Below are positions 11,552-13,742 of a DNA stretch of 64,000 bases, one piece after another; positions within the stretch are counted from its first letter, which is position 1; each line of letters opens with the position of its first letter. The DNA comes from Acetobacter tropicalis. GTDB taxonomy: Bacteria > Pseudomonadota > Alphaproteobacteria > Acetobacterales > Acetobacteraceae. Location of the stretch: assembly GCF_001580915.1 (NCBI RefSeq), contig NZ_LHZQ01000213.1:1-64000 (forward strand), read 5' to 3'. The notes beneath the pieces were generated by a model that was not told the origin of the DNA, searched no databases, and saw only the letters and a program-made list of their open reading frames with translations. The position numbers and the translations under genes were made by a program.

Positions 11552-11857
11552 ATGGCTGACGATAAACTCAAGACGGTCGCAAACAAGGTTGAAGGGATTG
11601 CTGATGAAGCCAAGGGTCGCCTCAAGGATGCGGCTGGCGGTCTGACGGGAGATCTGGGCCTGCAGGCGGAAGGCAAGTTCGATCAGTTTTCCGGCATGGC
11701 GCAGCAGGAATTTGCTGACCTGTATGAGGAAGGGGAAGGCGTAGTAGAAAAAGCTGTCACGTTTGTACGTGATAAGCCTTTGCTTTCATTGGGAATTGTT
11801 TCCGTGGTGGGCCTGCTGATTGGCTGGCTGGTGTTCCCGCGCGGCAAGCGTTCCTGA
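11552..11857 (+). CDS. CsbD-like / YqjD-like stress-response membrane protein
   Basis: A 101-residue protein. The N-terminal half matches CsbD-type repeats (NKVEGIADEAKGRLKDAAG, then LQAEGKFDQFSG), a small helical domain linked to general stress responses. The C-terminal half has a short acidic linker and one membrane helix (LSLGIVSVVGLLIGWLVF) ending in basic residues, like the membrane-anchored YqjD/ElaB proteins. A good ribosome-binding site (AAGGAG) sits 7 bases before the ATG. The molecular role is not established for the family. It may share a transcript with rnhB-ccrM, but the hairpins in between suggest a boundary. Confidence 0.8.
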   Translation: MADDKLKTVANKVEGIADEAKGRLKDAAGGLTGDLGLQAEGKFDQFSGMAQQEFADLYEEGEGVVEKAVTFVRDKPLLSLGIVSVVGLLIGWLVFPRGKRS

Positions 11858-11873
11858 AAATTTCCTGCACCGC

Positions 11874-11961
11874 GACTCTTGCGCTGAGCGGTGAAAAGTG
11901 ATTCTCCTTGCCTCACGGAGTCGCAGTTGGTGCGACTCGGTATTTTTTACCGAGTCGCACC
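11874..11961 (+). promoter_or_regulatory. Leader of rnhB-ccrM: five GANTC sites and two competing hairpins
   Basis: GANTC, the predicted target of the methylase encoded two genes on, occurs at 11874, 11900, 11918, 11934 and 11952: five sites in 83 bp, where about 0.3 are expected by chance. Three lie inside inverted repeats. Arm 11918-11925 pairs with 11931-11938 (8 bp). Arm 11929-11942 pairs perfectly with 11948-11961 (14 bp, five-T loop). The segment 11931-11938 belongs to both, so the hairpins exclude each other. In Caulobacter the ccrM promoter is known to be affected by methylation of GANTC sites in its leader; a similar role here is inference. The large hairpin could also be a terminator for the csbD-like gene, but lacks a T-tail. 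Confidence 0.7.
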
Positions 11962-11982
11962 AAATCGATGGAAAGAGGGGCA

Positions 11983-12612
11983 ATGCCGGATTTTACGCGG
12001 GAACAGCAACATGGCGGACGTGTCGCCGGAGTGGATGAAGTGGGCCGTGGCCCGCTGGCTGGTCCCGTAGTCGCCGCCGCCGTGGTCTTTGCCGCAGGCG
12101 TGCCCGCTGATCTGGCGGCCATTATTGATGATTCCAAAAAACTGAAACCGGCAGTGCGTGAGGCCATCGCGGCCCGCCTGCCTGATGTGCCCGGTATTGA
12201 AATCGGGCTTGGTGCAGCCTCGACTGCCGAAATTGATGATCTGAACATCCATCATGCCGCCCATCTGGCCATGCAGCGCGCCGTTGCCCGGCTTCCGCGC
12301 TTGCCGGATCATGTGCTGGTGGATGGCAATAAAGCGCCCGATTTTGGATGCAGCACGCAAACTGTGGTTGGGGGTGATCGCCTGAGCCTGTCCATTGCCG
12401 CAGCCTCCATTGTGGCCAAGGTTGTGCGGGACCGCATCATGGCCCGCCTTGATACGCGCTGGCCCGCTTATGGGTGGGAGAGAAATGCGGGCTACGGCAC
12501 CGCAGCCCACCGGCTGGCGCTGACCACAACGGGGATCACCCCGCATCATCGTAGAACCTTCGGCACTGTGCGCCGGCAAATTGAACATTTTTATACGGAG
12601 GGCCGGGCATGA
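11983..12612 (+). CDS. rnhB: Ribonuclease HII
   Basis: Cleaves the RNA strand of RNA-DNA hybrids and incises at single ribonucleotides in DNA. The 209-residue form contains the RNase HII signature [13 protein letters not shown] (catalytic Asp18 and Glu19). Further acidic residues appear in [11 protein letters not shown] and VRDRIM, as does the AGYGT motif that reads the ribose 2'-OH. The frame is open from 11908, but that segment would translate the hairpin leader. The ATG at 11968 directly abuts the hairpin without a ribosome-binding site. ATG 11983 has an AGAGG just upstream and fits the family. The stop overlaps the start of ccrM by 4 bases (ATGA), a pairing conserved in alphaproteobacteria. 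Confidence 0.93.
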
Positions 12613-13742
12613 GCGGCGCAAAATCAATGAGCATGGAACTGCCTCTGGACCAGATTCTGCGTGGCGAATGTGTTGAAACCATGCGCACGTTGCCCTCCGG
12701 CTCTGTTGATTGCGTGTTTGCTGATCCGCCGTATAACCTGCAACTTCGTGGTGAACTGCGCCGCCCCGATGATTCCCTGGTGGATGGTGTGGATGATGAT
12801 TGGGACAAATTTTCCGATCTTCAGGAATATGACCGCTTTACGCGGGCCTGGCTGACGGAAGCCCGCCGTGTGCTGCACAAGGACGGCACCATCTGGGTGA
12901 TCGGTTCCTATCATAACATTTTCCGCATCGGTGCGATTTTGCAGGAACTGGGGTTCTGGATCCTGAATGATATTGTGTGGCGCAAATCCAACCCCATGCC
13001 GAATTTTCGGGGGCGTCGTTTTACCAACGCGCATGAAACCCTGATCTGGGCGGCCCGGAGCGAGGATAGCCGTTACCGGTTCAATTATCAGGCCATGAAG
13101 GCGCTGAATGATGATGTGCAGATGCGGTCTGACTGGTATCTGCCACTCTGCACCGGCAATGAACGTCTGCGGAATGAACACGGGCTGAAGCTGCACCCCA
13201 CGCAGAAGCCGGAAAGCCTGTTGCACCGGGTGCTGCTGGCGTCCACCACGGTTGATGACGTGGTGCTGGACCCCTTTACCGGCACAGGCACAACGCCCGC
13301 CATGGCCCGCCGGTTGCGTCGCCGTTTTATCGGCATTGAGCGCCACCCGGACTATGTGGAAGCAGCCATGAGCCGTGTGGCGCGGGAAACGCCGCTGGCT
13401 GATGATGCGGTTGTCACCACGCAGGATAAGCGTGAAGCGCCGCGTGTGCCTTTTGGTAGTCTTGTGGAGCAGGGTTTGCTGCCGGTTGGCACAGTACTGT
13501 GTGATAAAAAGCAACGGGTGAATGCCACGGTTTCGCTTGACGGCACATTGGTGAGCGGTACCAAGCGTGGGTCCATTCACAAGCTGGGCGCGCAGTTAAC
13601 CAACGCACCATCCTGCAATGGATGGACCTTCTGGCATTTTGAACGCAATGGCGAGTTTCTGCCGCTGGATGTGTTGCGTCAGGAAAGTCTGGATCTGGCA
13701 AAAACTGCTGCCGCTACCGCCAAGGCAGCCGCCGCAGGCTGA
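12609..13742 (+). CDS. ccrM: CcrM-type adenine-N6 DNA methyltransferase (GANTC)
   Basis: A beta-class N6-adenine methyltransferase of 377 residues: the catalytic motif DPPY (residues 39-42, [10 protein letters not shown]) precedes the SAM-binding motif ([10 protein letters not shown], near 218-227). The extended C-terminal domain (about 290-360, [15 protein letters not shown] onward) is the RAMA domain that CcrM proteins use for site recognition. Family knowledge: CcrM methylates the adenine of GANTC and controls cell-cycle transcription in alphaproteobacteria. It is coupled to rnhB by a 4-base overlap. A second ATG at 12633 ([10 protein letters not shown]) is an alternative start. A run of GANTC sites in the operon leader suggests autoregulation. 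The C-terminus ends in an Ala/Lys-rich tail. Confidence 0.94.

Follow-up and report, generated by a model that had tools for sequence, protein, structure and literature searches.

How the amount of the cell cycle methyltransferase CcrM is set is the question raised by a short leader ahead of the rnhB-ccrM gene pair, in which five GANTC sites, the predicted target of the enzyme, are crowded together. CcrM timing is at the heart of the cell cycle in alphaproteobacteria, and the Caulobacter ccrM leader contains GANTC sites; to our knowledge, little is known about how the amount of CcrM is set outside Caulobacter. In the excerpted text of two reports, Caulobacter ccrM is described as "most probably" regulated by its own methylation (PMC3973325) and as activated by CtrA (PMC3667746). 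A sequence-only reading of the leader studied here had proposed control both by methylation state and by attenuation.

In the window, by which we mean the whole 64-kb stretch of DNA that was analysed, the leader is bordered by the following genes:

11552..11857, + strand: csbD-like gene upstream of the leader (PF05532, E 7.1e-15), on the same strand as rnhB-ccrM
11983..12612, + strand: rnhB, ribonuclease HII (PF01351, E 5.9e-42)
12609..13742, + strand: ccrM, GANTC adenine methyltransferase (PF01555 and RAMA, PF18755), its ATG overlapping the rnhB stop

The best solved relative of the ccrM product is Caulobacter CcrM (6pbd, residues 13-359, E 2.8e-144), and the NCBI CcrM model NF050803 matches it over nearly the full model length (E 1.4e-190) with 632.7 bits, below the curated cut-off of 830. 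The downstream GANTC-type methylase postulated by the sequence-only reading is therefore a CcrM orthologue with both the methylase and the C-terminal RAMA domain, and methylation of GANTC by it is predicted from this orthology. By CcrM, the closest named genomes are those of Acetobacter (L001, L002).

The sites of the cluster are:

11874..11878, no strand: GANTC site 1 (GACTC), at a possible -35 element (xxGACT), with a conserved CTTGCGC directly after it
11900..11904, no strand: GANTC site 2 (GATTC), not conserved
11918..11922, no strand: GANTC site A (GAGTC), 5' partner of a non-covarying 8-bp stem
11934..11938 and 11952..11956: GANTC sites B and C, opposite each other within hairpin P2

The five exact motifs start at 11874, 11900, 11918, 11934 and 11952, with spacings of 26, 18, 16 and 18 bp, just as had been claimed, so that 83 bp (11874-11956) hold five sites where any other 83 bp of the window hold at most two. 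The motif is scarce in the window, with 97 occurrences against 205 +- 15 expected from shuffles. Random placement of the 97 sites gave a maximum of four GANTC per 83 bp in 2000 rounds, and five were reached by 1 of 200 first-order Markov simulations of 64 kb each, sequences that keep the dinucleotide make-up and hence should hold about twice as many GANTC as the window. The predicted fold of the leader is also more stable than that of shuffled sequences (z = -4.6). A dispersed repeat was considered and ruled out, the leader being single-copy in the genome; genome-wide, the pattern CGACTCG-N2-20-CGAGTCG is found once, as is a backwards control pattern.

Of 49 genomes in the genus, 48 gave a ccrM match (the remaining one is 68% complete), and conservation of the cluster was followed in their leaders and in a family search, for which 200 genomes were drawn, 189 matched and the leaders of 27 new loci were read. 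GANTC density, counted per 150 bp before rnhB and compared with that over whole loci (leader included), averages 4.54 against 0.58 in the 48 genus leaders, 3.81 against 0.34 in the 27 family loci (L116-L142), and 2.04 against 0.29 in 24 named loci of L001-L030, which mix acetic acid bacteria with other Rhodospirillales-type organisms; the excess is absent from 43 distant alphaproteobacterial leaders (L031-L080; 0.33 against 0.34). Named acetic acid bacteria (Acetobacter, Gluconacetobacter, Gluconobacter, Asaia and Bombella; L001-L007, L011) carry 4-7 GANTC per 200 bp of leader, and other Acetobacteraceae (e.g. L010, L019 and the Rhodopila loci) carry 1-2.

Within the genus, site 1 lies in a block, GA[CG]TCTTGC, present in 45/48 leaders, and GA[AG]TC stands at site A in all 44 aligned leaders. 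Loss of the cluster in close relatives, which the sequence-only reading had named as counting against it, was looked for, and sites 1, A, B and C are together kept in 44 of the 48 genus leaders; the expected conservation thus holds for four of the sites and fails for the one at 11900, found only in the 13/48 leaders that have a GTGATTC variant (TGATTCT was counted 13 times). The exceptions are L144, L145, L157 and L158. In the four genomes without P2 or the block (G038, G039, G040, G042) both ccrM and gcrA are retained, and across the genus genomes cluster loss and gcrA loss were not linked. Two of these genomes are small (G039, L158, 1.5 Mb; G040, L157, 1.7 Mb) and have no leader GANTC at all, yet keep ccrM and gcrA. 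Alignments A1 and A2 comprise 44 of the 48 leaders, leaving out L144, L157 and L158 (no GA[CG]TCTTGC block) and L145 (no B:C stem), and A3 is without L111, L114 and L160, which have a 12-nt insertion. The starts of L103 and L160 were extrapolated from a partial match and are off by 1-2 bases; one comparison omits L103 and L145, and L116 and L145 are one genome.

Three of the sites fall within predicted hairpins. The 8-bp stem of the sequence-only reading is present as given, at 11918-11925/11931-11938, and its second, perfect stem exists as well, its length being 16 perfect pairs (11927-11942/11948-11963, loop of 5) instead of 14:

11927..11963, + strand: hairpin P2, 16-bp stem TTGGTGCGACTCGGTA / TACCGAGTCGCACCAA, found in 44/48 genus leaders, with covariation

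The geometry of P2 is rigid, the two 7-mers being separated by exactly 11 nt in 44/44 leaders having both, with sites B and C 18 bp apart in 44/44 and sites A and B 16 bp apart in 43/44. In the covariation set (44 aligned leaders, 27 distinct rows), 85.2% of P2 cells are paired, against 29.1-40.3% in controls in which the arms were slid, and 44 cells have both partners changed, where the slid arms give no more than 13 and shuffles 18.2 +- 3.9; the covariation score of 0.228 compares with at most 0.093 in the slid controls and was reached by 0/500 shuffles. There is no excess over shuffles in the number of pairs with changes in both partners (7 against 6.0, 148/500) or in the number of pair types (17 against 17.1, 320/500). 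In columns 4-7 and 15-17 both arms have been altered outside the GcrA motif with pairing retained. On a tree of the 44 rnhB genes, P2 shows 10 direct changes from one Watson-Crick pair to another, at 9 pairs, and 20 changes from Watson-Crick pair to plain mismatch; G-U and A-C arose from Watson-Crick pairs in 7 and 6 events, and occupy 22 and 11 cells where 30.3 and 21.9 are expected, a balance that gives RNA no clear advantage over DNA as the level at which the stem is kept.

A stem of the same type is found in 16/19 leaders of g60, a second genus of the family, where GAATC stands opposite GATTC, giving the centre an A-T instead of a C-G pair. In L124 of this genus, GGTGCGAATCGG replaces the window's GGTGCGACTCGG and the other arm compensates, so that the stem TGGTGCGAATCGGG / CCCGATTCGCACCA is that of the window with the central pair of both GANTC exchanged together; outside the 16, L168 and L173 have one pair turned to G-U and L170 a mismatch (by eye). 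The two features can also occur apart. L145 has no GANTC downstream of the promoter block and nevertheless an 8-bp hairpin at the place of P2 (p 0.016, 60 shuffles), and L004, L005, L007 and L011 (Gluconobacter, Asaia, Bombella) have 4-5 GANTC in 200 bp and a best perfect inverted repeat of 5-7 bp that is not above shuffles (p 0.16-0.85). The L145 hairpin is GC-rich and lies some 60 bp before rnhB, a natural separation of structure from methylation sites. Of the two hairpins, it is the 3' one, P2, that is supported by covariation and conservation in the sequences compared.

A second, long-range pairing, P1, is predicted to enclose P2:

11898..11917, + strand: pyrimidine-rich tract, 5' strand of P1, predicted by folding to pair with the ribosome-binding region of rnhB
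11972..11985, + strand: rnhB ribosome-binding site and start codon, 3' strand of P1

Folds begun at the conserved [AG]TG (11898) in the 45 leaders with the block contain at least 6 P1 pairs in 42/45, with a mean of 12.3 pairs against 7.1 when the tracts are shuffled, and leave the rnhB ribosome-binding site with a mean unpaired probability of 0.20; P1 pairs are absent from the predicted fold in L099, L143 and L159. Because composition alone can make such a tract complementary to such a site, each tract was tested against its own partner and those of its relatives, and because the register of P1 shifts between lineages, this swap test took the place of RNAalifold, which does not return P1 on A1 or A3 and gives a local helix on A3. 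Among 40 distinct leaders, own partners pair at -16.97 kcal/mol against -13.57 +- 0.49 for permuted partners, a value reached in 0/5000 permutations; these and the Fisher values count related sequences as separate. A blind window (-115 to -60) gave z -5.3 in the genus, and six controls taken from these genomes, five positions within rnhB plus the start of ccrM, were all negative (z -0.7 to 1.4). With the tract fixed, the signal is found in clade A (n=27; z -5.0, 0/5000, own partner better than the mean in 20/27) and in clade B (n=13; z -2.2, 72/5000, 9/13). In 22 other family leaders it is weaker (z -2.8, 17/5000, own beating the mean in 15/22), in g60, where both strands are nearly invariant, the test gives z -1.7 and 0.4, and in 38 leaders of L012-L080 it is negative (z -0.5).

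The genus as a set has thus kept a pairing predicted to hide a ribosome-binding site, as a translation-controlling leader would; L089, L107 and L153 are of the types with a strong P1. In the window's own species P1 is weak, its tract pairing at -11.0 with its own site against a mean of -12.4 with the sites of others, and its ribosome-binding site is 0.62 unpaired. Were transcription to start just after the TATAAT-like element described below, part of the P1 tract would lie outside the RNA. All 45 block-containing leaders have an ATG or GTG at 11898-11900 (43 identified by pattern, and L145 and L148 by eye), and its conservation may reflect pairing with the start region of rnhB instead of use as a start codon. 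An upstream ORF beginning there was considered and rejected, since the start is kept while the frame runs from 8 residues to open and falls into the three frames relative to rnhB in 20, 18 and 5 of 43 leaders, which makes a leader peptide of more than about four residues unlikely. No Rfam family comes near its gathering score in this stretch of the window or in six relative loci. On A1 (44 leaders), RNAalifold pairs the TTGCG after site 1 (11879-11883) with the bases after site A (11922-11926), a pairing with one-sided changes only that may reflect chance or an alternative fold.

At the DNA level, the cluster can be compared with the sites of GcrA. The sequence YGAKTCG, taken here as the GcrA motif, fits sites B and C on opposite strands, that is, as an inverted pair; sites 1, 2 and A do not fit it, and site 2 (TGATTCT) would fit the looser YGAKTCK. 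The latter is the form of the motif given in the excerpted text of a study that describes no strong preference beyond GANTC in Brevundimonas (PMC7987155). In the genus, 102/218 leader GANTC have the YGAKTCG form against 18/179 elsewhere in the loci, and the corresponding shares are 54/100 against 2/45 in g60 and 46/85 against 22/131 in other family loci; there is no enrichment in L031-L080 (3/14 against 97/568). A gcrA gene is present in the window's genome (PF07750, 106.7 bits; NCBI GcrA model, 84.5 bits, under its cut-off of 280), and the Pfam model is over its cut-off in 48/49 genus genomes. That model is also over cut-off in Sulfolobus acidocaldarius, so a match alone is no proof of a cell cycle GcrA. 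The leader has in common with GcrA-dependent promoters an extended GANTC near a candidate promoter in a genome with gcrA. In Caulobacter, according to the excerpted text of one report, GcrA covers -35 to +7 of the fully methylated ctrA P1 promoter and binds hemimethylated DNA in a strand-specific manner (PMC3667746).

The candidate promoter lies at the GA[CG]TCTTGC block, probably with site 1 at the -35 element, as suggested by two relatives inspected by eye: Gluconobacter L005 has TTGACA-N17-AGTAAT at the place matching the block, and in A. fallax L006 a -35 element overlapping site 1 is followed, at the corresponding distance, by TATAAT. A promoter scan of the window returned no sigma-70-like site; the mapped promoters of Gluconobacter oxydans are described, in the excerpted text of their report, as having a lax consensus only (PMC5756330). 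A CtrA-driven ccrM promoter of the Caulobacter type was also considered and set aside, the full CtrA site TTAA-N6-8-TTAA being absent from 47/48 upstream regions of 276 bp each (it is present in L157). In L143, L146 and L147, strong terminator-like hairpins follow the csbD-like gene upstream of the leader (by eye), which suggests a separate promoter for rnhB-ccrM in that clade.

The preferred reading, to which we give roughly an even chance, is that the region is a methylation-responsive rnhB-ccrM promoter-leader of acetic acid bacteria that also folds as an RNA hiding the ribosome-binding site, so that feedback would act at two levels. Behind it stand, as read from the aligned genomes, the conservation of the cluster, the covariation of P2, the co-evolution of P1 in the genus, the match of B and C to the GcrA motif and the presence of gcrA, and we infer the transcription start, GcrA binding, dependence on methylation, an effect on translation and a trigger that opens P1. 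The methylation control proposed by the sequence-only reading appears likely from the conservation of the sites and the motif fit of two of them. On the DNA, one GANTC would lie at the probable -35 element and three conserved ones just downstream, B and C would present one GcrA-type site, CGAGTCG, in inverted orientation on the two strands, and the methylation state set by CcrM, as read by GcrA with sigma-70, would tune transcription of ccrM. After replication, such an inverted pair would make both hemimethylated sisters equivalent, which could account for its inverted orientation. In the RNA, P1 would form a closing helix around hairpin P2 in which the pyrimidine tract hides the rnhB ribosome-binding site, and would lower or gate translation of rnhB and, via the overlapping start, that of ccrM. 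If true, a leader joining methylation sites with a covarying RNA that hides a ribosome-binding site would add a translational layer to an epigenetic feedback loop.

The reading could be extended in a way to which we give little credence, in which the same letters serve in two roles: as DNA, the inverted GcrA/CcrM sites would give hemimethylated sisters one readout, and as mRNA the double-stranded GANUC of the stem would be bound by CcrM (or GcrA), clamping P1 shut and halting the enzyme's own translation once there is a surplus of free enzyme. CcrM is described as inactive on single-stranded RNA in the excerpted text of a study of the enzyme (PMC6787082).

Doubtful, though well short of negligible, is a reading confined to DNA, in which the leader is an array of GcrA/CcrM sites, its inverted repeat amounts to two protein sites in opposite orientation and its RNA folds are by-products. 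The fixed B-C and nearly fixed A-B distances agree with it, as does the inverted YGAKTCG fit of B and C, which in g60 switch together to K = T as a binding motif would ask. It would not, however, call for changes on both arms outside the motif with pairing kept, since a binding site needs none, nor does it offer a DNA-level reason for the co-evolution of the tract with the ribosome-binding site, and the L145 hairpin is present where the downstream GANTC are missing. The converse reading, in which a structured leader controls translation and the GANTC are carried along inside the stem, accommodates P1, P2 and the L145 hairpin, but it is unlikely, as L004, L005, L007 and L011 keep their GANTC without an inverted repeat above shuffles and the leader GANTC are strongly enriched for the GcrA motif.

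Quite unlikely, too, is upkeep by mutation, in which template switching at the quasi-palindrome copies one arm to the other and P2 covaries without selection. Template switching can use perfect stems of this length, 16 bp, with a short loop as its substrate; a further repeat, around site 1, speaks for it as well, with long perfect repeats among the leaders whose arms and geometry vary:

11868..11893, no strand: inverted repeat IR1 (CACCGC ... GCGGTG) around site 1, perfect 6 bp, p 0.044

Such upkeep fits poorly with the persistence of P2 at a constant gap in 44/48 genus genomes and in 16/19 of g60, and leaves P1 unexplained. A transcription attenuator, finally, in which the 8-bp stem and a T run end transcription unless the 16-bp stem forms, is very improbable: a terminator-like site at 11918-11938 is indeed followed by GGTATTTTTT in the window, but the covariation score of the 5' stem A:B (0.058) is about that of shuffles (0.053), the T6 run is found in 2/44 loops (L086, the window's own, and L087), and the scanned stretch holds three terminator-like sites where 1.6 are expected by chance. 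First-clade loops mostly have at most 4 consecutive T and the second clade has no such run; a conserved terminator stem with a U run and a competing stem is therefore not what the genus has, and without covariation of the 5' hairpin the mutually exclusive hairpins that the sequence-only reading took for an attenuator find no support. The likelier RNA-level effect is on translation, through the pairing of the ribosome-binding site, which that reading had not noticed.

Relative to known systems, the promoter-leader favoured here is close to that of Caulobacter crescentus ccrM in its probable control by the methylation of its own product, and differs from it in having four conserved sites, a covarying hairpin and a leader before rnhB that hides the ribosome-binding site, as well as in the absence of the full CtrA site from nearly all upstream regions where Caulobacter ccrM is activated by CtrA. 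With the methylation-dependent promoters of the GcrA/CcrM system (mipZ, ctrA P1) it shares GcrA-type GANTC around a probable promoter in a genome with gcrA; it differs in the number of sites and in the inverted pair placed in a covarying stem, and its dependence on methylation is putative. ROSE-like RNA thermometers and riboswitches hide ribosome-binding sites, and the leader resembles them in that its ribosome-binding site and start codon are predicted to be paired over a long range, whereas it has no Rfam family near gathering score and no known ligand or temperature response. In the literature, none of the best-ranked matches linked ccrM or GANTC with Acetobacter, the matches on ccrM mRNA leaders lacked the phrase "ccrM mRNA", and those on ccrM autoregulation were synthetic-circuit work only; in the excerpts of the matches listed, a covarying GANTC stem with a co-evolving ribosome-site pairing was not found. 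Methylation control of ccrM is known as probable in Caulobacter, and the covarying GANTC stem and co-evolving ribosome-site pairing appear to be new.

Some further features of the leaders may be recorded. IR1 is clear in part of the first clade with a geometry that is not constant, and in the second clade is found only in L146 (7 bp); it flanks the conserved CTTGC, and in L088, L091, L105, L112 and L115 is perfect over 8-11 bp with quite different arms. In L004, L005, L007, L128, L132 and L139, which belong to other genera, the leader has the string GATTCAAAAnCGANTCG instead of the P2 stem (by eye), and TGATTCA occurs 15 times in 23 leaders. The shared string could be a site for another factor.
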